Shown piece by piece: positions 4,953 through 21,598 of a DNA stretch of 29,325 nucleotides (within the stretch, counting starts at the first letter, position 1; each line of letters begins with the position of its first letter). The position numbers and the translations under genes were made by a program. The notes under the pieces are model-generated. The model was not told the origin of the DNA. It worked only from the letters and a program-made list of their open reading frames with translations, and made no database searches. The DNA is from a virus. The DNA is taken from positions 1 through 29,325 of the IMG/VR virus record IMGVR_UViG_3300048930_000314. The stretch is one strand, 5' to 3'.

Positions 4953-5146
4953 GCACACCGAGACATTCCCAGCTGCTCTCGGTGCCGCTCTCGGAGCGAT
5001 GCCACACGACCACACCGGTCGACGCCACCGCCGGCCGTTGCCGCGGACTGTTCTCGGATGGTTGGGACTGGCACGGCTGCGACCTGACACCACCGCACAC
5101 ATCGCATCACTGCCCGTGCGGACACCAATGGAGAAAGACGACATGA
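4949..5146 (+). CDS. Small Cys/His-rich protein
   Basis: 65 residues from ATG 4949 (ATGA overlap). The C-terminal half holds C-R-G-L-F, W-H-G-C-D-L, H-T-S-H-H-C-P-C-G-H-Q-W, a dense Cys/His cluster. The pattern G-C-D-L-x-P-x-x-x-x-H-x-C-x-C resembles the gene at 1631, so the two are likely members of one small zinc-binding family. Its stop overlaps the start of the large helicase-methyltransferase gene, which may make it a translational leader as well as a protein. Function unknown. Confidence 0.68.
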   Translation: MSTPRHSQLLSVPLSERCHTTTPVDATAGRCRGLFSDGWDWHGCDLTPPHTSHHCPCGHQWRKTT

Positions 5147-7665
5147 CCGACGCCTACGAGCAGCTGCTGCGCGACAAGATCACCTTCGACTCAGCCTGCG
5201 GCTACGACATCGACGAATCAGAGATCAACCCGATCCTGCTGCCCCATCAGCGCGACATCGTCCGATGGGCGGTACACGGTGGACGCCGGGCGATCTTTGC
5301 TTCGTTCGGTCTCGGCAAGTCGGTGATGCAGCTGGAGACGTGCCGGCTCACCCGTACTCGAGCGGGTGGTCGTGCGTTGATCGTGTGCCCGCTCGGTGTG
5401 CGTCAGGAGTTCAAGCGTGACGCAGCGATGCTCGGTCAGACCTCGAAGTTCGTGCGCTGGTCGTCGGAGGTCACCGACGAGGGCGCCGAGCCGGACATCT
5501 GGTTGACGAACTACGAGAGCATTCGCGACGGCAGGCTCGACCCGGACCTGTTCACCGTGATCTCGCTCGACGAAGGCGCAGTACTTCGCTCGTTGGGCAC
5601 GAAGACGTTCCAGACGTTCCGGCTGCTCTGCGACTCGGTGCCGCATCGCTTCGTTGCCACCGCCACCCCGTCGCCGAATGAGCACACCGAACTGACGAAC
5701 TACGCCGACTTCCTCGGCGTACTTGACCGTGGCCAGTCGCTTACGAGATGGTTCAAGCGGAACTCGTCGAAGGCCGGCGAACTCACCTTGATGCCGCATC
5801 GCCTCGATGAGTTCTGGGCGTGGGTCGCGACGTGGTCCGTGTGGTTGCAGAAGCCGTCGGATCTCGGCTACTCCGACGACGGCTACGAACTCCCCGAGAT
5901 CGACGTCCGCTACCACGAGATCGAAGTCGACGCGCTCAACTCGTTGACGTTCGAGAATCAAGGCCAAGGGGTGCTGGTGCGTGACGGTGCGCTCGGTGTC
6001 GTCGGCGCGTCCAAGGAGAAACGCGACTCGATCACCGCACGCGTCGAGAAGGCGAAGGAGATCGTCGACGCCGACCCCGACGATCACTTCGTGTTGTGGC
6101 ATCACCTCGAATCGGAACGTCAGGTGATCGCCCGCACGATCCCCGACGTGTGCGAGGTGTACGGCTCGCTCGACCTCGAAGAACGTGAGCGGCGCATCGT
6201 CGCATTCTCCGACGGCGAAGAGCGACTGCTCGCCACGAAGCCGTCGCTGTCCGGATCGGGCTGCAACTTCCAACGGCATTGCCATCGGGCGATCTTCGTC
6301 GGGATCGACTTCAAGTTCGCCGACTTCATCCAAGCCTGCCACCGCATCCAGCGCTTCCAACAGGACCGCCCGGTGCGGATCGACATCATCCACGCCGACA
6401 CCGAACGCCAGGTCGTCGCCGAACTCAACCGCAAGTGGAAACAACACAGGGAGATGACCGCAACCATGTCGAAACTCATTCAGGAACGCGGCCTATCGCG
6501 TGAGGCGATGTCGGAGGCGCTCGCCCGGTCGATCGGCACCGAACGCGTCGCAGCATCGGGCGAAGGTTGGGAGATCGTCAACGACGACACCGTCCGCGAG
6601 ACACGTCGCATGGCGACGGAGTCCGTCGATCTGATCTGGTCGTCGCCGCCGTACGGCACACAATACGAGTACGTGGCCGCGATCGAAGACTTCGGGCACA
6701 ACGACGACAACGACGCCTTCTGGCGACAGATGGACCACCTGACACCCGAGCTGCATCGCATCTTGAAGCCGGGACGTATGTGCGTGTTCCACGTCAAGGA
6801 CCGCATCCGCTTCGGCAACATGAACGGCCGCGGCTATGCCACGGTGCAGCCGTTCCACGCCGAAGCGATCATGCACATGATCAAACACGGCTTCGGCTTC
6901 GTCGGCGAGATCACGTTGGACACCGACGTCGTCCGCGAGAACAACCAGACGTATCGGCTCGGCTGGTCCGAGGTCGTCAAGGACCGAACGAAGCTCGGCG
7001 TAGGCACACCGGAGAAGGTGCTGCTGTTCCGCAAGAACCAAACCGATCGAACGACAGGCGCAGCCGATGAGCCGGTGGTCAAGACGAAGGAGCAGTACAC
7101 GCTCGCCCGCTGGCAGATCGACGCCGCATCGCTGTGGAAGTCGTCCGGCAACCGCTTCATCACGCCCGAGGAACTCGAGGGGCTCCCGGTGCCGACGCTG
7201 CGCAAGGTGTTCGCCGCTGCGTGCGAGTCGCGCATCTACGACTACGAGGCGCACGTCGCCCTGGGCGACGACTTCGCTGCGAGGGGTCGTCTCCCGACGA
7301 CGTTCGCCATGCTCGCTCCGACGACCGAATCACCGGTCATCTGGACCGAGGTGAACCGTCTGCAGTCGCTGAACACGTCGCAGGCACAGAAGGGTCGAGA
7401 GCTGCACGTCTGCCCGACTCCAACCGACGTGCTCGACCGCTGCATCAACCAATGGTCGAACCCCGGCGATCTGGTGTACGACCCGTTCGGCGGGCTCGGC
7501 TCGTGCGTCGTACGTGCCCTGGCCCTGGGCCGGCGAGGGAAATGCACCGAACTGAACCCGCTGTACTGGGGTGACGCCGTGAAGTACGCGCAGGCGATGG
7601 AGAACAAGGTCAACATGCCGTCGCTGTTCGACGCCTTCGATGTCCTCGCCGAAGAAGTGGCGTGA
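5143..7665 (+). CDS. SNF2-like helicase fused to DNA methyltransferase
   Basis: 840 residues from ATG 5143 (ATGA overlap, GGAG 9 nt upstream). ATG 5128 and the longer open frame overlap the previous gene. The N-terminal half is a superfamily 2 helicase/ATPase: L-L-P-H-Q at 32-36, a Walker A of form S-F-G-L-G-K-S at 54-60, D-E-G-A at 143-146 as motif II, A-T-A-T-P-S for motif III, and Q-A-C-H-R-I-Q-R at 397-404 as motif VI. The C-terminal half is an amino-methyltransferase of the N4-C/N6-A type in circular order. The catalytic S-P-P-Y-G is at 501-505, and the AdoMet-binding D-P-F-G-G-L-G starts at residue 780, ahead of C-T-E-L-N-P. No nuclease domain is visible. It could modify phage DNA against host restriction. 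The recognition sequence is unknown. Confidence 0.88.
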   Translation: MTDAYEQLLRDKITFDSACGYDIDESEINPILLPHQRDIVRWAVHGGRRAIFASFGLGKSVMQLETCRLTRTRAGGRALIVCPLGVRQEFKRDAAMLGQTSKFVRWSSEVTDEGAEPDIWLTNYESIRDGRLDPDLFTVISLDEGAVLRSLGTKTFQTFRLLCDSVPHRFVATATPSPNEHTELTNYADFLGVLDRGQSLTRWFKRNSSKAGELTLMPHRLDEFWAWVATWSVWLQKPSDLGYSDDGYELPEIDVRYHEIEVDALNSLTFENQGQGVLVRDGALGVVGASKEKRDSITARVEKAKEIVDADPDDHFVLWHHLESERQVIARTIPDVCEVYGSLDLEERERRIVAFSDGEERLLATKPSLSGSGCNFQRHCHRAIFVGIDFKFADFIQACHRIQRFQQDRPVRIDIIHADTERQVVAELNRKWKQHREMTATMSKLIQERGLSREAMSEALARSIGTERVAASGEGWEIVNDDTVRETRRMATESVDLIWSSPPYGTQYEYVAAIEDFGHNDDNDAFWRQMDHLTPELHRILKPGRMCVFHVKDRIRFGNMNGRGYATVQPFHAEAIMHMIKHGFGFVGEITLDTDVVRENNQTYRLGWSEVVKDRTKLGVGTPEKVLLFRKNQTDRTTGAADEPVVKTKEQYTLARWQIDAASLWKSSGNRFITPEELEGLPVPTLRKVFAAACESRIYDYEAHVALGDDFAARGRLPTTFAMLAPTTESPVIWTEVNRLQSLNTSQAQKGRELHVCPTPTDVLDRCINQWSNPGDLVYDPFGGLGSCVVRALALGRRGKCTELNPLYWGDAVKYAQAMENKVNMPSLFDAFDVLAEEVA

Positions 7666-12476: not shown

Positions 12477-12620
12477 ATGCTGCGCAACTGGATCACGACG
12501 ATCACTGAGGTCACCGGACTCGCGCTGGTCAGCGCGGGCGCCTGGAATGCGTTCGGCGCCGGCGTTGGCATGATCGCCGCTGGGGTGTCCTTGATCGTGG
12601 TGTCGGTGGTGTCGGCGTGA
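12477..12620 (+). CDS. 47-residue membrane protein between terminase and portal
   Basis: Read directly from ATG 12477 (GGAGG at 12467-12471, 5 nt before the start) to TGA 12620, which overlaps the portal GTG (GTGA). The sequence is two hydrophobic segments: about residues 10-25 (V-T-G-L-A-L-V-S-A-G-A-W) and 27-47 (G-V-G-M-I-A-A-G-V-S-L-I-V-V-S-V-V-S-A), joined by a short glycine turn. The arrangement predicts a small two-pass inner-membrane hairpin. Its position between packaging genes is notable, but a role in packaging is not established; superinfection exclusion or a holin-like role are equally open. Confidence 0.65.
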   Translation: MLRNWITTITEVTGLALVSAGAWNAFGAGVGMIAAGVSLIVVSVVSA

Positions 12621-13747
12621 GTCTGCTCGTCAGGTCACGCCCCGCACCGGAGAAGCGGTACTCAGACCCGAACCGGGTGCCCAGTCCCGGCGAAGCCAGC
12701 GCCGGTGTCGGCTACGAGTACCGAACCCAGGACGCATTCAAGATCGCCGCCGTAGTCGCCTGCATCGGTCTGCGTGCAGGCGCGCTCGCTCAGATCCCGC
12801 TCAAGGCGTATCTGCGTGGAGAAACGCAGGCCCTGGCATCGCCGCAACCTGAACTACTCACGGCACCGTCGACGCAACGCGTCGTGGTCCCGTCGGTGTG
12901 GAAGACGCAACTGTCGATCTCTCGTGACGTGTGGGGCTACGCCGGCGGCCATATCCGTGGCGTGGACGCATCAGGACGCGTGTCCAAGGTCGACTGGAAG
13001 CTGCCCGGCACCGACATTGTCGGCGTCTACGACCCGGCGATCAGTGATCTGCGCTGGAGGATGCACGGCGCCCCGATCGACTCATCGCTGGTTTTCCACG
13101 TACCGTCGCGATGGGTGATGCCCGGCAACCCGCTCGGCGTCTCGCCGCTCGAACATTCCGGTCTCGTCGACCTGGCGAAGCGGGCGCAGGACTTCGGTCG
13201 CGACTGGTTCCGCAATGGGGCAGTTCCGTCGTCGATCCTGTACTCCGACACCGAGATCGACTCGGACGAGGCAGACAGCATCCTGGAGAAAATTCGCCAA
13301 CGCTGGAGGCGACGTCAACCGGCAGTGATCGGCTCGGGGTTCAAGTACGAAAAGGTGTCGGTCGCGGCGAACGAGTCGCAGTTCATCGAAACGATGCAAC
13401 GCGCTGCTGCGGACATCGCGATCTCGTTCAACCTCCCCCCGTCCAAGATTGCCGCTGCGGTCGCGTCGGGTGGCGACATCAAGTACCAGAACCTGGAGAT
13501 GTCGACCCAGCAGTACCTGATGGACTCGATCAACCCGGACCTGGTGCTGACCCAGGAGATCATCGGCTTGTACGTCAACCCGCGGACCTACCTGCGTTGG
13601 GCGACCGGGGCGTTCACTCGTTCCGACTTGAAGACCCGCTACGAGTCGTACGCGATCGGCAAGGCGGCCGGGTTCCTCGTCAACGACGAGATCCGCGAGT
13701 GGGAAGAACTCGGACCCATACCCGAAAGCGACGGAGGTGCCCCCTGA
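12617..13747 (+). CDS. Portal protein, HK97 family
   Basis: 376 residues from GTG 12617. Typical HK97-type portal features appear in order: the N-terminal V-A-A-V-V-A-C-I-G-L-R-A-G-A-L-A-Q-I-P-L-like segment near residue 45, a W-K-L-P middle region, G-N-P-L-G-V-S-P-L-E at 170-180, the R-N-G-A-V-P-S-S-I-L segment near 200, and F-N-L-P-P-S-K-I-A-A with Y-Q-N-L-E near the C-terminal clip. Twelve copies would form the DNA channel at one capsid vertex. It lies between terminase and protease as expected, and its stop shares a base with the next ATG (TGATG). Confidence 0.93.
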   Translation: MSLLVRSRPAPEKRYSDPNRVPSPGEASAGVGYEYRTQDAFKIAAVVACIGLRAGALAQIPLKAYLRGETQALASPQPELLTAPSTQRVVVPSVWKTQLSISRDVWGYAGGHIRGVDASGRVSKVDWKLPGTDIVGVYDPAISDLRWRMHGAPIDSSLVFHVPSRWVMPGNPLGVSPLEHSGLVDLAKRAQDFGRDWFRNGAVPSSILYSDTEIDSDEADSILEKIRQRWRRRQPAVIGSGFKYEKVSVAANESQFIETMQRAAADIAISFNLPPSKIAAAVASGGDIKYQNLEMSTQQYLMDSINPDLVLTQEIIGLYVNPRTYLRWATGAFTRSDLKTRYESYAIGKAAGFLVNDEIREWEELGPIPESDGGAP

Positions 13748-14691
13748 TGGCGAAGCAGCTTGAGCGTCGGTCGTTCCACGCCGACTGGCAGGTACGCGAC
13801 AACGGTGACGGCACAGTCGGCGTCCGCGGATACGCGGCCGTGTTCGATTCGCCTGCGCATGGCGAGGTGATCAAGCGCACCGCGTTCAACCGGACGCTGC
13901 AGCAGAAGGACAACGTCCGGCTGCTTCGTGACCACAACCCGTCGCTGTGCTTCGCGTCGACGCGCGCCGGGACAATGACGCTTGAGGTCGACGACCGAGG
14001 TCTCATCTTCGACGCACCATCGCTCGACATGGACTCGCCCGATGTGCGTTCGTTCGTGTCGGCGATCAACCGTGGCGACGTGTACCAGTGCTCGTTCGCC
14101 GGCTACTGGCGTGACGCCCCAAAGGTGGCCGGGCAGACCGAGGTCCGCGAGGTCGAACTCGTCGACGTGTCCGGGGTCACTTTCCCGTGGTATGACGACA
14201 CCGAGGTCGGTCTGACCGGTGACCGCTCCATCGATCGGGAGCTCGTGACCCGCTCCGCACCCGACGTCGACATCAGTGAGCAGCAGCGTGCACAGGCGCT
14301 CCGCAACCTGCGAGCAGCACCTCCGGGCAAGACGTCGTTCGGTGACGAGATGAACGATCTGTGGGACGCCATCGAGGACAAGGTCCGAAACGACACCGGC
14401 TCAGCTGACGTGTACGTATACCTCGTCGACTGGGGCACCGATTGGGCCGTCTATCGGATCTACAACTGGGACACCTACGAATACGGCCCGCACATGCAGT
14501 GCGCATGGTCGAAGAACACCGACGGCACCTACAACCTCGGTGAACCATTCGAGGTGGAACGGATCACCGAGTACCGGCCCCTCACCACCGAAGATCGCAC
14601 CGGAGCAGACCTCGACCTCGAGGACCGCTCCGACGAGACCCGACCGGCACCCATGTCGGTCGAAGCCGCCCGAGCTTTGCTCGGCCGCTGA
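13747..14691 (+). CDS. Prohead maturation protease, HK97 (U35) family, with extra C-terminal domain
   Basis: 314 residues from ATG 13747 (TGATG overlap). Residues 1-165 are the HK97-type prohead protease. They include G-Y-A-A-V-F-D-S at 29-36 and R-T-A-F at 44-47. The likely catalytic histidine is in R-D-H-N-P (H63) and the serine in Q-C-S-F-A-G (S116). It processes the N-terminal delta domain of the capsid protein. Residues of about 195-285 form a separate alpha/beta segment (L-W-D-A-I-E-D-K-V, V-Y-V-Y-L-V-D-W, V-Y-R-I-Y-N-W, L-G-E-P-F-E-V-E). Similar C-terminal segments occur in other actinophage proteases and may act as scaffold. Protease identity is confident. Confidence 0.9.
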   Translation: MAKQLERRSFHADWQVRDNGDGTVGVRGYAAVFDSPAHGEVIKRTAFNRTLQQKDNVRLLRDHNPSLCFASTRAGTMTLEVDDRGLIFDAPSLDMDSPDVRSFVSAINRGDVYQCSFAGYWRDAPKVAGQTEVREVELVDVSGVTFPWYDDTEVGLTGDRSIDRELVTRSAPDVDISEQQRAQALRNLRAAPPGKTSFGDEMNDLWDAIEDKVRNDTGSADVYVYLVDWGTDWAVYRIYNWDTYEYGPHMQCAWSKNTDGTYNLGEPFEVERITEYRPLTTEDRTGADLDLEDRSDETRPAPMSVEAARALLGR

Positions 14692-14792: not shown

Positions 14793-16268
14793 ATGTTCCC
14801 CAACTCCAACGCGCCCACCCGCGCCGTCATCGACGGTCGCGACTCGTGGGTGTTCCCCAACGGCCGGGTCCTCCCGGTCATCTCCGGCGGTGACGAAACC
14901 GCCACCGCTGAGGTCCGCACGCTCGCCGATCTCCAGCTCGCCGCACGCGCCGAGCTCGAAGACGGCATCGTCGCTCGCGCCACCGAGGTGATCGCGCTCG
15001 CCGAAACCGAGCAGCGCGTCCTCACCGACGAGGAAGCACAGATCGTCCGCGACGCCGCCACGGCGACCCGCGAACTCGATCAGACCATCGAGGCCCAGAT
15101 CCAGATCCAGCGCGGCAACGACCTCGTCGCCTACGAACGGCCCGCACAGCGCGCCGTCGGTGGCGCGATCGTCCGCTCGGAGCCGATGACGTACAGCCGC
15201 GAGGCGTCGCACTCGTACTTCCGGGACCTCGCGCTGCAGTCGCTGGCACGCAACGGCCACCGGTCGGACAAGTACCAACCGTCGGTCGACGAGCGCCTCG
15301 AGCGTCACGGTCGCGAGATCGCCGTCGAGACCCGCGCCGGCACCACCACCGACGGCGCCGGCGGCGAGTTCGTCCCGCCGCTGTGGCTGCTGTCGGAGTA
15401 CGTCCCGATCTTCAGGTCGGGTCGCGCAACCGCGGACCTCGCCCGGTCGCTCCCGCTGCCGTCGGGCACCGACTCGGTGAACATCCCGACCATCACGACC
15501 GGAACGCTCACCGCGGTGCAGGCGACGGAGAACTCCGCGGCCACGACCCGTGACCTGGCGACCGGCTCGACCACGGCCGAGGTGACCACCGTCGCCGGCT
15601 ACTACGACGCCTCGGTGCAGCTCGTCGAGCAGTCGGCTCTCGCCGGTGGCTTCGATGCGCTGGTGTACGGCGACCTCGTCGCCGACCGCAACCGGGCCAC
15701 CGACGTGCTCGTTCTCTCCGGGACCGGAGCGAACAACCAGCCCGTCGGCGTGCTCACCGCCGCGTTCACGACCGTCACGGTCGCGACGGCCGCAGCGACG
15801 GCGCTGTACGCCGGTATCGCCGACGGCATGAACCGGGTTGCCACGAACCGGTTCGACATGCCGCAGGTGATAATCATGCACCCACGCCGCTGGTTCTGGC
15901 TGGTGTCGCGCTTCGATTCCCAGGGTCGCCCCCTGGTCACCCCCGACGCCGGCGCAGGTCAGAACCTGATCGCGGCGATGGGGATGCCCGAGGCCCAGGG
16001 TGTCGTCGGCACGATGCTCGGTCTGCCGGTCGTCATCGACGCCAACGTGCCCACCACCACGTCGACGCACTTCGACGACGTCATCGTGTGGCGTCCGAGC
16101 GACGCCATCCTGATGGAAGGCGCACCGCGGCTCGAGGCGTTCCGCGATGTGCTGTCGGCGACGCTCGGCGTCCGCTTCCGGCTGTACAACTACGCCGCGT
16201 TCACGACCCGCACGTCGCTCTCCGCGGCGAAGCTCACCGGCGCCGGGCTCACCGGCCCGACCTTCTGA
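14793..16268 (+). CDS. Major capsid protein, HK97 fold
   Basis: 491 residues from ATG 14793. The first 150 or so residues are charged and helical (L-Q-L-A-A-R-A-E-L-E-D, E-Q-R-V-L-T-D-E-E) and match the scaffold-like delta domain removed by the protease. The shell domain begins near the T-R-A-G-T-T-T-D-G-A-G-G-E-F-V-P region. It continues through E-N-S-A-A-T (E-loop/P-domain), the A-L-V-Y-G-D-L helix, G-T-G-A-N-N-Q-P-V-G and the M-H-P-R-R-W-F-W-L segment typical of phage capsid proteins. The end, R-F-R-L-Y-N-Y-A-A-F, is also characteristic. No cross-linking Lys/Asn pair can be assigned by eye. It is followed by strong hairpins, which may limit read-through. Confidence 0.93.
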   Translation: MFPNSNAPTRAVIDGRDSWVFPNGRVLPVISGGDETATAEVRTLADLQLAARAELEDGIVARATEVIALAETEQRVLTDEEAQIVRDAATATRELDQTIEAQIQIQRGNDLVAYERPAQRAVGGAIVRSEPMTYSREASHSYFRDLALQSLARNGHRSDKYQPSVDERLERHGREIAVETRAGTTTDGAGGEFVPPLWLLSEYVPIFRSGRATADLARSLPLPSGTDSVNIPTITTGTLTAVQATENSAATTRDLATGSTTAEVTTVAGYYDASVQLVEQSALAGGFDALVYGDLVADRNRATDVLVLSGTGANNQPVGVLTAAFTTVTVATAAATALYAGIADGMNRVATNRFDMPQVIIMHPRRWFWLVSRFDSQGRPLVTPDAGAGQNLIAAMGMPEAQGVVGTMLGLPVVIDANVPTTTSTHFDDVIVWRPSDAILMEGAPRLEAFRDVLSATLGVRFRLYNYAAFTTRTSLSAAKLTGAGLTGPTF

Positions 16269-16380: not shown

Positions 16381-17265
16381 ATGCCCGAACAAGAAGACGT
16401 ACTGCGCCCGTTGATGGTCGTCGAGCAAGACCTGCCCGACGGCCCCGAACCAGGGACCGTGATGGTCGGATACCTGTCCGGCTCGAATGTGTCGAACCTG
16501 TTTCTGCACTCGATGTTGTCGCTGTCCCGGTTTGACGCCGACCAGGGATTCAACCGGCTGCAGCATCCGAACTGGTGGTTCAATCAGCGGTCCGGCGTCA
16601 ACGTGTCGAAATCTCGTAACGATCTGGTGCGCCAGTTCCTCGCTCAGCGCGACCCGGCACCCGAGTGGCTGCTGATGACCGACGCGGACATGTCGTTCAG
16701 CCCTGGCGCTCTCGAGTCGCTACTGGCTGCCACGGTGGTGCCCGAAGCGGACATCGAGGCGAACGGCGACTCGGTACGGCGCATCGTCGGCGGGTTGTGC
16801 CTGGCGTTCGGTATCGACCCGGAGTGCCAGTTCACGACACTGCCGTCGCAGAACGCCGTCATGTCGACCGCGTTCGATCCGGGCCCGGAGCTGCCTGGAG
16901 TCGGGATCCTGCCGTTCCGTGTCCTGAAGAAGTCCGAGGTCCCGAAGAACACGCTGCGCGAGGTGTACGGCACCGGCGCCGCGTTTCTGCTGGTGCACCG
17001 TCAGGTGCTGATCGACATCGCCTACATGACGAACTCGCGTTACGGCTGGTTCCGTGAGATCATCGTCCCCGACGAACGCCCCGACGTCGACATGCTCGAC
17101 GCGAACGACTACTGGGTGTCCGAAGATCTGTTCTTCTGTCTCCAGTCGAGAGCCGCCGGGCATCGCATCTTCGTGCACACCGGCGTCGAGGTGCAGCACA
17201 CCAAGTCGATCCGGCTCACGGAGAAGCTGTGGCGCCAGTACTCGCGGGTTCCGGAGTCGGCATGA
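16381..17265 (+). CDS. Glycosyltransferase, GT-A-like
   Basis: 294 residues from ATG 16381, with GGAGG 5 nt upstream. The frame extends upstream to 16147 but only through the capsid gene and hairpins. The fold is GT-A-like: W-L-L-M-T-D-A-D-M-S-F holds the metal-binding D-x-D at 101-103. Farther on are G-T-G-A-A-F-L-L-V-H near residue 200, W-V-S-E-D-L-F-F-C as the acceptor/catalytic acid region, and V-H-T-G-V-E-V-Q-H-T as the distal histidine. It would transfer a sugar from a nucleotide donor to a phage or host acceptor. Location directly behind the capsid gene, with an epimerase in the same operon, argues for virion glycosylation. The sugar and acceptor are unknown. Confidence 0.82.
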   Translation: MPEQEDVLRPLMVVEQDLPDGPEPGTVMVGYLSGSNVSNLFLHSMLSLSRFDADQGFNRLQHPNWWFNQRSGVNVSKSRNDLVRQFLAQRDPAPEWLLMTDADMSFSPGALESLLAATVVPEADIEANGDSVRRIVGGLCLAFGIDPECQFTTLPSQNAVMSTAFDPGPELPGVGILPFRVLKKSEVPKNTLREVYGTGAAFLLVHRQVLIDIAYMTNSRYGWFREIIVPDERPDVDMLDANDYWVSEDLFFCLQSRAAGHRIFVHTGVEVQHTKSIRLTEKLWRQYSRVPESA

Positions 17266-17927
17266 TCGACATCATCATCCCCACGATCGGTCGCCCTGAT
17301 CGCCTGGCCGCGCTGGTCGACAACATCGACACCGTCACCGCCACCGATCACTCGATCACGTTCGTGACCGAGGCGTTCGACACCGCGACGATCGAGACGG
17401 TCACCGCCCTCGGTCTCACCCCAGTGATAAACGACCGGACCGAGAACTACGCCGGAGCCGTGAACACCGCCTACGAGCAGTCCGACGCCGACTACCTGTT
17501 CGCCGGCGCCGACGACCTGATCTTCCACCCAGGGTGGGATCAGGCGTGCCTGGCGGGGTTCGACGGGTGGTTCGGCGTGGTCGGCACGAATGATCTGCTG
17601 AACCCGTACGTGCTCGCCGGTTCTCACTCGACGCATCATCTCGTCGCCCGCTGGTATCTCGACGACGTCGGCGGTGTGGTTGATCTCGGCCCCGGCTCGT
17701 TCCTGCCCGAGTGCTACGACCACAACTTCACGGACACCGAGTTCATCGGCACGGCGAAGATGCGGGCGCGGTTTCGTCCGTGCCTCGACGCAGTCGTTGA
17801 GCATCTGCACGTCACGACCGGTCGGGCTCCGGCGGACGCCACCCACGAGCGCTCGGTGCGTGCGTTCGCCGAGGACGCCGCAATGTACGACGACCGCCGC
17901 GAACTGTGGTTCGGGATCACACGATGA
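17262..17927 (+). CDS. Second glycosyltransferase, family 2-like
   Basis: 221 residues from ATG 17262 (ATGA overlap). The start I-D-I-I-I-P-T-I-G-R-P-D-R-L is the classic N-terminus of family 2 glycosyltransferases. F-A-G-A-D-D-L-I-F around residue 84 supplies the acidic metal-binding pair. D-T-E-F-I-G-T-A-K-M-R and V-E-H-L-H near the end correspond to the acceptor side. It is shorter than most family 2 enzymes but has no break. With the preceding enzyme it could build a disaccharide or modify two different sites. It forms a coupled three-gene unit with the epimerase that follows. Confidence 0.8.
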   Translation: MIDIIIPTIGRPDRLAALVDNIDTVTATDHSITFVTEAFDTATIETVTALGLTPVINDRTENYAGAVNTAYEQSDADYLFAGADDLIFHPGWDQACLAGFDGWFGVVGTNDLLNPYVLAGSHSTHHLVARWYLDDVGGVVDLGPGSFLPECYDHNFTDTEFIGTAKMRARFRPCLDAVVEHLHVTTGRAPADATHERSVRAFAEDAAMYDDRRELWFGITR

Positions 17928-18928
17928 CGAACTATCACCTCGTCGACCAGAACATCACCTCCCACGCCAAAGCCAATCGGCTGGCTGAACCGGTGGTCGT
18001 GCTCGGTGGCGGCGGCTTCATCGGCTCCCGCCTCGTGGAACGCCTCGTGCGCGACGGCTACAGGACCGTCGCCGTCGACATCGCATGGCCCGCAGAGCGC
18101 GACGGCTACCTCGAGGGCGCTGACCGGTGGACGCTCGATCTCACCGACGTCACAGCAGCGTCTAGCGCGGTGCATGGGGCGGGAACGGTGTTCCATCTCG
18201 CCGCCGACATGGGCGGTGTCGGCTGGTTTCACTCCGACCGGGACTGGCAGTCGTCACTCACCAACGGCCGCATCACCACCAACGTCCTCGAGCAGGCGAC
18301 CCGCCACGAGGTGCAACGGCTCGTGTACGCATCATCGGCGTGCGCAGCAGCGACCGAACCACAGAGCAATCCGTCGACCCCGTACCAGATCACCGAGGAC
18401 GACCTGACGTGGGGGACACCTGACGCCCTATATGGAGCCGACAAGCGCCACGGCGCCTGGCTCTGCTCTCACGCCCCGTTCGACGCCCGTGTCGGCGTGT
18501 TCCACACGATCTACGGACCAGGCCAGGAACACGCCGGACCACGAATGAAGTTCCCGACCGCCGTCGCCACCAAGGCTCTCGCATCACGGGAGTCCGGACG
18601 TCTCGAACTGTGGGGCGACGGCACACAGATGCGCAGCTACCTTTTCATCGACGACGCGATCGACCGCATCATGCAACTAGCCACGGCATCGGAGAGCCCG
18701 GGGCCGGTGAACATCGGTGCCGAAGGTGCGATCTCGTGCCAGGACATTGCCCAGATGTGTCTGCTGATCGTCGGATCGAACGCCGACATCGTGCACGTCG
18801 ACGGCCCGACCGGGGTCGCTGCACGCGACGCAGACCTCACGAAGTGGCGAGCGATCTTCGGGCCACCCCACCAGACGTCCTATTGGGACGGGTTCTCCGA
18901 ACTGATCTCGTGGCTGGAGGCGCTGTGA
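17924..18928 (+). CDS. GDP-mannose 3,5-epimerase-like extended SDR
   Basis: 334 residues from ATG 17924 (ATGA overlap); GTG 17906 would add six residues. The NAD-binding G-x-x-G-x-x-G is at 28-34 within V-L-G-G-G-G-F-I-G. The catalytic set of GDP-mannose 3,5-epimerase is recognisable: S-S-A-C with C140, Y-G-A-D-K with Y170/K174, and a lysine in R-M-K-F-P (K209). These are spaced much like C145, Y174, K178 and K217 of the plant enzyme. M-G-G-V-G-W, L-W-G-D-G-T-Q-M-R-S and P-V-N-I-G also match. Such enzymes convert GDP-D-mannose to GDP-L-galactose or GDP-L-gulose. This one probably supplies the two glycosyltransferases. Other epimerase/dehydratase activities are possible. Confidence 0.8.
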   Translation: MTNYHLVDQNITSHAKANRLAEPVVVLGGGGFIGSRLVERLVRDGYRTVAVDIAWPAERDGYLEGADRWTLDLTDVTAASSAVHGAGTVFHLAADMGGVGWFHSDRDWQSSLTNGRITTNVLEQATRHEVQRLVYASSACAAATEPQSNPSTPYQITEDDLTWGTPDALYGADKRHGAWLCSHAPFDARVGVFHTIYGPGQEHAGPRMKFPTAVATKALASRESGRLELWGDGTQMRSYLFIDDAIDRIMQLATASESPGPVNIGAEGAISCQDIAQMCLLIVGSNADIVHVDGPTGVAARDADLTKWRAIFGPPHQTSYWDGFSELISWLEAL

Positions 18929-19044
18929 CCGCCAAGCCGGACACCCCGCCACAAGGGCACGACGACCGTCGCGAACGCCCGCAGAAGGCAACCAGGACCG
19001 AAGGCATCAAGCGTGCTGTCCTCCCGCCACCCGACGAACGCTGA
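18925..19044 (+). CDS. 39-residue basic protein
   Basis: Read directly from GTG 18925 (GTGA overlap with the epimerase) to TGA 19044. It is hydrophilic, rich in Lys, Arg, Pro and Asp (R-R-E-R-P-Q-K-A-T-R-T-E-G-I-K-R), with no visible fold. Small basic ORFs of this sort often occur between capsid and connector genes, but no family is recognised. It may be an expressed peptide or only a coupling ORF. Confidence 0.5.
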   Translation: MTAKPDTPPQGHDDRRERPQKATRTEGIKRAVLPPPDER

Positions 19045-19066: not shown

Positions 19067-19198
19067 ATGCTGCTGTCGACGGTCGCTGACCAACAGATCC
19101 TCGCCGGCACCGCGGCCACGCTGTCGTGGCAGCCGGTCGACTCCGACGGTGAACCGGCCGATCCGGGCACGGTGACTCGCACATCTGAGAGGCGGTGA
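19067..19198 (+). CDS. 43-residue ORF, possibly a truncated structural-protein domain
   Basis: ATG 19067 to TGA 19198. The text A-T-L-S-W-Q-P-V-D-S-D-G-E-P-A-D-P-G-T-V looks like the first two strands of the Ig-like beta sandwich found in many phage structural proteins; the gene at 26311 starts with a comparable T-I-V-R-G-A-D-M-A-F-Q-L-T-V-T pattern. The domain stops abruptly in T-R-T-S-E-R-R, so it looks like a remnant of a longer gene. Its end carries GAGAGG, which acts as the ribosome site for the connector gene three nt downstream. Alternatively it is a genuine small decoration protein. Confidence 0.5.
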   Translation: MLLSTVADQQILAGTAATLSWQPVDSDGEPADPGTVTRTSERR

Positions 19199-19200
19199 CC

Positions 19201-19794
19201 ATGACGCTCTACGCCACGGTCGAGGAAACCGAGCAGTATCTGCGTTCGACGGTCACTGCGGATCTCGCCGAGATCAAGGTGGCGTTGACGGTCGGCTGCC
19301 AGGCGATCGATCTCGCTACGGTCCGCACGTTCGGTGTGCCCGACGACGAGACGACGAAGGTCTACGCCCCGATCAGTGGCGACCTGGTGAAGGTGGACGA
19401 CATCGCGAACACGACAAACCTCGTGATCGTCGACAACGGCTCCACGCTTTCGGCGTCCGACTACCAGTTGGAGACGTGGCCGGGCCGCGCCAATCAGATG
19501 TCGCAGACGGGGATCATGTACCCGTTCGCCTACATCAGGCGTATCTCCGGTTCGTGGCATGTTCCTTGCAACGGTGAGGCGACGTTGTCGGTGACGGCAC
19601 AGCATGGTTGGCCGGCGATTCCCGACTCGATCAAGCTGGCGTCGAAGCTCGCTGCGAAGGACTACCTCGACATGCGCGACACCCGGTTCGGGTTGGTGCA
19701 GGTCGGTGACTTCGCTCGTCGGATCATGGAGAACTCGACGATCGGCGGCCTGCTGCAGCCGTTCCGTAGCGGCGATTCGTGGGGCATTGCCTGA
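19201..19794 (+). CDS. Head-tail connector (adaptor) protein
   Basis: 197 residues from ATG 19201, preferred over the GTG at 19195 because the GAGAGG is then correctly spaced. The opening Y-A-T-V-E-E-T-E-Q-Y-L and helical stretch with A-L-T-V-G-C-Q-A-I-D fit the HK97 gp6-like connector/DNA packaging proteins. Later segments (V-T-A-Q-H-G-W-P-A-I-P, A-S-K-L-A-A-K-D-Y-L) are typical of this group: a Gly-Trp-x-x-(V/I)-P followed by a long helix. It would bind beneath the portal. Its position after capsid and before tail-completion genes agrees. Assignment rests on pattern and order. Confidence 0.75.
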   Translation: MTLYATVEETEQYLRSTVTADLAEIKVALTVGCQAIDLATVRTFGVPDDETTKVYAPISGDLVKVDDIANTTNLVIVDNGSTLSASDYQLETWPGRANQMSQTGIMYPFAYIRRISGSWHVPCNGEATLSVTAQHGWPAIPDSIKLASKLAAKDYLDMRDTRFGLVQVGDFARRIMENSTIGGLLQPFRSGDSWGIA

Positions 19795-20430: not shown

Positions 20431-21162
20431 ATGGCGATCCAGTATTGGAAGGACATGTCGATCCTCGTGGGGTCGATCGAGATGGCGTGCTACGCCAAGA
20501 GCTTCAGCGTGAACAACGAGGTCGCCCAGCTCGACACGACGTCGCTCTGCTCGACCGGTTGGACGTCGTCCATCGGTGGGTTGAAGTCCGGCAGCGTGCA
20601 GATCGAGTTCATGCAGGACGTCGCCGAAGCCTCGGTTGACGACACGCTGTACCCGCTGCTCGGTCAGGCTGGCGTCGTCAAGTCGATCGTCACCGGCTCG
20701 GCTGACGGTTCGGCCGCCTACCTGTTGAAGTCGATCCCGTTGACGTACACGCCCGTTCAGGGTGCCGTCGGCGAGCTGGCGATGGGCAACATCTCTGGTT
20801 CGTCCTCGACCGGTCCGGTCGTGCGTGGCAAGTTGCTGCACCCGTCGAACGTGTCGCGCTCGTCGAGCTCGACCGGCACGGGCCGCCAGCTCGGCGCGGT
20901 CGCCGCCGGCCAGAAGGTCTACGCCGCCCTCCACGTCATCGCAGCGAGTGGTACGCCGACGCTCGACGTCATCGTACAGTCCGACGACAACGCCGGCTTC
21001 ACGACGCCGACGACCCGCCTGACGTTCACGCAGGCCACCGGCTTGACGTCGGAGTTGCTGTCGACCGCCGGTGCGATCACCGACGACTACTGGCGGGTGT
21101 CGTACACGATCGGCGGGTCGTCGCCCGAGTTCGCTTTCGCAGTCACCTGCGGAATCATCTGA
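20431..21162 (+). CDS. Major tail tube protein, long paralog
   Basis: 243 residues from ATG 20431. Residues 1-125 share with the next gene the motifs L-D-T-T, G-W-T-x-x-I-G-G-L-K-S-G, D-D-V-A or Q-D-V-A, and G-A-V-G-x-L-A-M, marking both as tail-tube proteins of the same family. Residues of about 140-243 add a second beta domain (L-G-A-V-A-A-G-Q-K-V-Y-A-A-L-H-V, S-G-T-P-T-L-D-V-I-V-Q-S-D-D, Y-W-R-V-S-Y-T). This domain is often present in actinophage tail tube proteins and probably projects from the tube surface. Which paralog forms the bulk of the tube cannot be told from sequence. Confidence 0.83.
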   Translation: MAIQYWKDMSILVGSIEMACYAKSFSVNNEVAQLDTTSLCSTGWTSSIGGLKSGSVQIEFMQDVAEASVDDTLYPLLGQAGVVKSIVTGSADGSAAYLLKSIPLTYTPVQGAVGELAMGNISGSSSTGPVVRGKLLHPSNVSRSSSSTGTGRQLGAVAAGQKVYAALHVIAASGTPTLDVIVQSDDNAGFTTPTTRLTFTQATGLTSELLSTAGAITDDYWRVSYTIGGSSPEFAFAVTCGII

Positions 21163-21187: not shown

Positions 21188-21598
21188 ATGGCCATCCAGG
21201 CTCTGACGGCTGAGGTCGTCAGCATCAACAGTGTCGACATCTCCGCCTACTGCAAGTCGGCGACCCTCACGATCGACGTCAACCAGCTCGACACGACCGA
21301 CTTCGCCAGCGATGGCTGGACGGAGATGATCGGCGGACTCAAGTCGGGCACGCTCGCCATCGAACTGATGGACGACGTCGCCGACGACCAGATCGACGAG
21401 GACTTCTACGCGATCCTCGGCACCGTCGTCCCGTTCGCCCTGAAGCTCGACGACGCTGCGATCTCGGCGTCGAACCCCGAGTATCAGGGCAACGTGCTGA
21501 TCACGTCGCACTCGCTCGGTGGCGCGGTCGGCGACCTGGCGATGAAGTCGTACAGCTTCCCGATCACGGGCGCCATCGTTCGCGACATCACCGCCTGA
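21188..21598 (+). CDS. Tail tube protein, short paralog
   Basis: 136 residues from ATG 21188 with AAGGAG 8 nt upstream; the upstream open frame covers the previous gene. Like the preceding gene it starts M-A-I-Q and carries Q-L-D-T-T, G-W-T-E-M-I-G-G-L-K-S-G, D-D-V-A-D-D and G-A-V-G-D-L-A-M. It has only the tube domain and lacks the extra C-terminal sandwich. A tandem duplication followed by divergence is the simplest origin. It may form the tube shaft while the long copy decorates it, or the reverse. Confidence 0.8.
   Translation: MAIQALTAEVVSINSVDISAYCKSATLTIDVNQLDTTDFASDGWTEMIGGLKSGTLAIELMDDVADDQIDEDFYAILGTVVPFALKLDDAAISASNPEYQGNVLITSHSLGGAVGDLAMKSYSFPITGAIVRDITA

Follow-up and report, generated by a model that had tools for sequence, protein, structure and literature searches.

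We detected, in the head-gene region of a phage, a gene resembling GDP-mannose 3,5-epimerase (GME) that is coupled to two glycosyltransferase genes, and we propose, with a probability of roughly 0.55, that these genes form a late-operon virion-glycosylation cassette in which the GME-like epimerase and the glycosyltransferases decorate the major capsid protein. The stretch analysed (the window) spans all 29,325 bases of an IMG/VR virus record and probably represents part of the genome of an uncultured tailed phage. Its structural region is siphovirus-like, with genes for TerL, portal, protease, HK97 capsid, adaptor, tail terminator, tail proteins and tape measure, and the capsid is 35-39% identical to mycobacteriophage capsids. 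The features on which the argument draws are the following.

12617..13747, + strand: portal protein, in the exchanged block with the cassette (PF04860, 1.1e-36; PHROG 12; blockwise identity).
13831..14691, + strand: head maturation protease with an uncertain start codon, in the exchanged block (PHROG 80, 3.3e-24).
14793..16268, + strand: HK97-type major capsid protein, the probable sugar acceptor (PHROG 2263, 2e-47; TIGR01554, 2.1e-26, above cut-off; PF05065, 1.7e-22).
16381..17265, + strand: GT1, GT-A-like glycosyltransferase of 294 aa with DAD, ED and His (PHROG 34859/1574; alignment; weak model).
17262..17927, + strand: GT2, family-2-like glycosyltransferase of 221 aa, the constant partner of the epimerase (PHROG 14945, 3.5e-10; PF00535, 3.9e-4).
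17924..18928, + strand: GME-like NDP-sugar epimerase, an extended SDR of 334 aa (PDB GME, 1.1e-41; AF2 model; catalytic residues; tree).
18925..19044, + strand: 39-codon ORF overlapping the epimerase stop and ending ATRTEGIKRAVLPPPDER.
19195..19794, + strand: head-tail adaptor, outside the exchanged block (PHROG 442, 7.6e-12; 98% identical to the relative L169, versus 52-60% for the block).

The first-pass annotation had placed three coupled ORFs between the major capsid and connector genes, and this layout was confirmed: the capsid gene is followed by GT1, GT2 and the epimerase and then by the adaptor (19195), with the tail terminator downstream of the latter, and the neighbours were identified by PHROG and TIGR01554 matches. 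GT1/GT2 and GT2/epimerase are each joined by ATGA, a 4-nt stop/start overlap. None of the three products carries transmembrane-like segments. The GC and GC3 contents of the cassette fall within the range of the neighbouring genes, and thus composition does not indicate a recent foreign acquisition. The motif ATRTEGIKRAVLPPPDER / ATTRTQGVERAVRTPERR belongs in the window to the overlapping 39-codon ORF (18925-19044), which is a gene apart; in five related contigs (L168, L169, L167, L170 and L003) it is fused to the epimerase as a C-terminal tail. Besides, the L169 epimerase has fused to it, in frame, the counterpart of a 43-codon ORF (MLLSTVADQQ...TRTSERR) that precedes the adaptor in the window (19067-19198). 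Elsewhere, the window encodes a phage PAPS-reductase-like protein (2037-2801; PHROG 424, 1.1e-46), an 888-aa fusion of an SNF2-like helicase (PHROG 16, 4.5e-106) and an N6/N4 DNA methyltransferase (PF01555) at 4999-7665, and two related tandem major-tail-protein-like genes (20431-21162 and 21188-21598).

A PDB sequence search with the epimerase ranked plant GMEs first (1.1e-41), ahead of the nearest other SDR family (9e-18), and NCBIfam and Pfam gave only generic or far-below-cut-off SDR matches. The AlphaFold (AF2) model (pLDDT 92.5), superposed on Arabidopsis GME (2c5a), gave a Z score of 43.5 and 1.4 Å over 310 residues, versus a Z score of 36.9 for the best non-GME SDR entry. The C-Y-K-K catalytic spacing seen at first pass was borne out, with C140, Y170, K174 and K209 aligned to Arabidopsis C145, Y174, K178 and K217. 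GMEs are the best match by both sequence and structure. Further matches are S138/S143, K217/K225, Q235/Q241, R237/R243 and R301/R306. The residues of SDR-type membership are present (G28/G31/G34 with S138, Y170 and K174), as are the GME acid/base pair (C140 and K209), the Cys-acidifying Arg (R301) and the diphosphate Arg (R237). In length, the K217 loop agrees with that of GMEs and not with the shortened Cys-His form. GDP-4-keto-6-deoxymannose epimerase/reductase (GMER, GDP-fucose synthase) was considered and rejected, the His base and acidifying Lys that characterise it being replaced by Lys209 and Arg301.

The residues proposed for recognising a GME are the Ser-Tyr-Lys triad, Cys145, Lys217, Arg306, Arg243 and Asn203, the last described as highly conserved (PMC8787198). 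It is here that the phage protein departs from the family. Asn203 is Thr195 and Glu216 is Met208 in the window epimerase; Thr at the former position and Met or Val at the latter occur in 10/10 members of the phage clade, whereas Asn203 and Glu216 were found in 23/23 canonical GMEs examined (plant, 12 from actinobacterial genomes, 8 cyanophage or marine-virus and 2 from other viral contigs) and Thr with Met/Val in 0/23. The GME motif FHNIYGPxGTWxGGREKAP is replaced by FHTxYGPxQEHxGxRMKFP. In the tree, the ten phage sequences form a clade with support of 100/99 on a long stem (branch 1.25), and this clade and the canonical GMEs group apart from the Cys-His SDRs (100/98). The canonical set has its own branch (88/78) with the window epimerase outside it, so that the phage clade is probably sister to the plant, actinobacterial and cyanophage GMEs, with moderate support. 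Compared with Arabidopsis GME, the epimerase therefore shares the fold, the Cys-Lys acid/base pair, the Arg, the Ser-Tyr-Lys triad, the AADMGG motif and about 31% identity, but differs in its separate clade and in the two pocket substitutions. Because the catalytic residues are kept in a separate clade with a changed pocket, we label the enzyme GME-like rather than a canonical GME: of the first-pass assignment, enzyme class and catalytic residues stood. Membership of another family with an altered active site had been named as evidence against that assignment, and half of this was seen, namely another clade and a changed pocket around conserved catalytic residues. The predicted product, GDP-L-galactose or GDP-L-gulose, stays plausible, but with Asn203 and Glu216 substituted it may also be another epimer.

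Searches for further relatives depended on the query. A scan of viral contigs with the single epimerase protein gave no matches, and one with a two-sequence alignment gave six loci. The tabulated relatives from cellular genome contigs were rejected as GMEs and referred to other SDR families, since they carry His at Lys217 or also lack the Cys. Genome-contig loci L098-L147 represent an SDR group, widespread in bacteria and haloarchaea, with the GME Cys, His at Lys217 and usually Arg at 306. In 396 Actinomycetota genomes the epimerase matched at no more than 35% identity, the best 12 matches inspected being canonical GMEs, and a search for the capsid at E 1e-60, run without a positive control, gave no match; we therefore assign no host.

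The claim of two GT-A-type transferases was upheld. From its matches, GT2 is a family-2-like glycosyltransferase, its PHROG glycosyltransferase match (3.5e-10) being accompanied by a PF00535 match (3.9e-4) below the gathering score. GT1 reads as a divergent GT-A enzyme: it matches the PHROG 34859 glycosyltransferases at 4.8e-6, as do 12/12 aligned relatives (best 3.7e-27), and keeps the DxD motif, ED and His in the alignment. Its model is weak (pLDDT 62.7) and its PDB matches, used for the GT-A class only, are GT-A enzymes that include collagen and mucin-type protein O-glycosyltransferases, a resemblance that we take as a hint only. Among 59 related-capsid loci with at least 2.5 kb downstream, a GT1 relative was present in seven, directly after the capsid gene, and the epimerase in none, suggesting that decoration is optional.

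A second viral contig carries homologues of the cassette at 51-59% identity with gene order preserved, and close pairs give dN/dS values of 0.07-0.15 for the epimerase; together these indicate that the cassette is not a chance assembly. It is under purifying selection (L168 versus L169: epimerase 0.07, GT1 0.12, GT2 0.10, GT3 0.13). Four contigs (L003, L167, L168 and L169) have related capsids, the same head order and the arrangement capsid-GT1-GT2-GT3-epimerase, the window cassette being without GT3; L170, a fragment, starts only within GT1. The adaptor follows the cassette in L003, L167, L169, L170 and the window, and L168 ends before that point. L003 also carries, at 5527-6372 between capsid and GT1, an ORF of 281 aa, judged HNH-like from its sequence and not present in the window, that looks like a homing-endonuclease insertion. 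GT2 adjoins the epimerase, or has just GT3 in between, in 10/10 contigs of the clade, and this pair is the constant core. It also occurs in the head-gene regions of three additional kinds of phage, whose capsids are divergent or unrelated. L097 has the order capsid, connector, GT4, GT2, epimerase and a galactosyltransferase-like gene, and L094 has an SU10-type capsid, GT4, GT2, epimerase and a GT. In L091/L092, GT2-epimerase precedes the terminase, with GT4 directly after the capsid gene in L091. L097 is filed under a Planctomycetota MAG; with terminase, portal, capsid and tape-measure genes as well as the cassette, it is a phage contig in that bin.

The blockwise identities connect the cassette with the head. 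L168 is 90% identical to the window up to the end of TerL (12457), about 66-69% from portal to epimerase and 94.6% from 19066 onwards, and L169 is 88% identical to the window from 19068 on; L168 and L169 have the portal-to-cassette block in common at 92%. Between the window and L169, the adaptor, tail terminator and major tail protein are 86-98% identical, versus 52-57% for the cassettes. The simplest reading is that portal, protease, capsid and cassette were exchanged as one unit, which would link the cassette with the head and not with the tail. This reading is drawn from one event in two related contigs, and as the block also holds portal and protease, the linkage is to the head module and not to the capsid alone.

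Based on these data, we propose the following scheme. The epimerase would take a GDP-hexose, most likely host GDP-D-mannose, and oxidise it at C4; Cys140/Lys209 would invert C5 and/or C3, and reduction would yield a GDP-hexose epimer (GDP-L-galactose, L-gulose or D-altrose). Soluble GT1 and GT2, with GT3 in most relatives, would then transfer the sugar in the cytoplasm to freshly synthesised major capsid protein, perhaps onto a sugar attached beforehand, all enzymes being expressed late. We infer substrate, product, acceptor and benefit to the phage alike, the identity of the sugar from homology; it is probably rare and perhaps an L-sugar. Evasion of host or antiviral recognition, suggested at first pass, is speculation.

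The major capsid protein, also favoured in the first-pass annotation, appears the likeliest target by position, exchange and precedent. GT1 and GT2 lie in the structural operon directly after the capsid gene, the arrangement that marks a virion-glycosylation cassette, and the cassette recurs beside capsids and moves with portal, protease and capsid. The two pocket substitutions and the position of the L091/L092 pair, before the terminase and away from the capsid, are points against the proposed scheme. Another virion protein (tail tube or fibre, or portal) is an unlikely target, though mycobacteriophage glycosyltransferases modify the tail tube as well as the capsid (PMC12363180): the cassette follows the head block, and the adaptor, tail terminator and major tail protein are much closer to those of L169 than the cassette is. 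More improbable is an alteration of the host cell surface, by receptor masking or superinfection exclusion. Cyanophage GME-like genes do lie in large cell-envelope sugar clusters, and the authors on phage S-SCSM1 read such epimerase/GT clusters in that way (PMC9602691), but the genes here overlap inside a head operon, encode no membrane-like segment and were exchanged along with portal, protease and capsid, and the ORFs searched on the 29-kb fragment yielded neither a lipid-carrier nor a flippase gene.

Phage glycosyltransferases can also act on DNA, as in T4-like phages, and the window encodes the helicase-methyltransferase fusion; glycosylation of DNA bases nevertheless seems very improbable, as no hydroxymethyl-pyrimidine-making enzyme was found among the ORFs searched in this fragment and GT1, in its model, resembles GT-A protein/lipid transferases. 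A serious competitor, though one we would hold only tentatively, keeps the virion role and gives the epimerase a new specificity, as a single C3- or C5-epimerase or on another GDP-sugar, with neither L-galactose nor L-gulose as product. The separate long-stemmed clade and its invariable departure from the Asn and Glu of canonical GMEs favour it, and single epimerases may exist (PMC8787198); against it, all residues for double epimerisation (Cys, Lys, Arg, Ser-Tyr-Lys) and the GME-length K217 loop are retained. Capsid decoration by the cassette may extend to a broader proposal, which we regard as possible but short of an even chance: that a distinct phage GME-like subfamily of new specificity, which accompanies the head genes in several unrelated kinds of tailed phage, supplies these phages with a rare and possibly L-type sugar of their own for the capsid, independent of the host repertoire. 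If true, some phages would encode a donor-making enzyme in the head module, beyond borrowing host sugar donors, and a capsid could carry a sugar that the host does not make. It would also provide a further source of enzymes for rare sugars (L-hexoses), the co-evolution of capsid and capsid sugar would become testable, and the product of the altered pocket could show what decides between single and double epimerisation.

Among known systems, the cyanophage GME-like genes (e.g., Synechococcus phage S-SCSM1 ORF123) are likewise phage-encoded, belong to the same wider family at about 30% identity and lie near glycosyltransferases, but have the canonical Asn/Glu pocket and sit in large sugar/metabolism clusters rather than in a head operon. 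In mycobacteriophages (Che8 gp110, Corndog gp38, Myrna), phage glycosyltransferases modify the capsid and tail tube, whereas the available portions of these reports mention no phage epimerase (PMC12363180, PMC11600133). A non-exhaustive literature survey gave no direct precedent for an epimerase that takes part in the glycosylation of phage virions. In TurkishDelight, a glycosyltransferase lies three genes after the capsid. The Omegavirus mycobacteriophage Ariel (genes 13-17: capsid-GT-GT-kinase-methyltransferase) has a capsid 37% identical to that of the window and two annotated glycosyltransferases directly after the capsid gene, but no epimerase there, and its glycosyltransferases have no BLAST match to GT1 or GT2. 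Overall, capsid-adjacent glycosyltransferases and capsid glycosylation were already known from mycobacteriophages and, as far as the collections and literature searched extend, the epimerase in that place is new.
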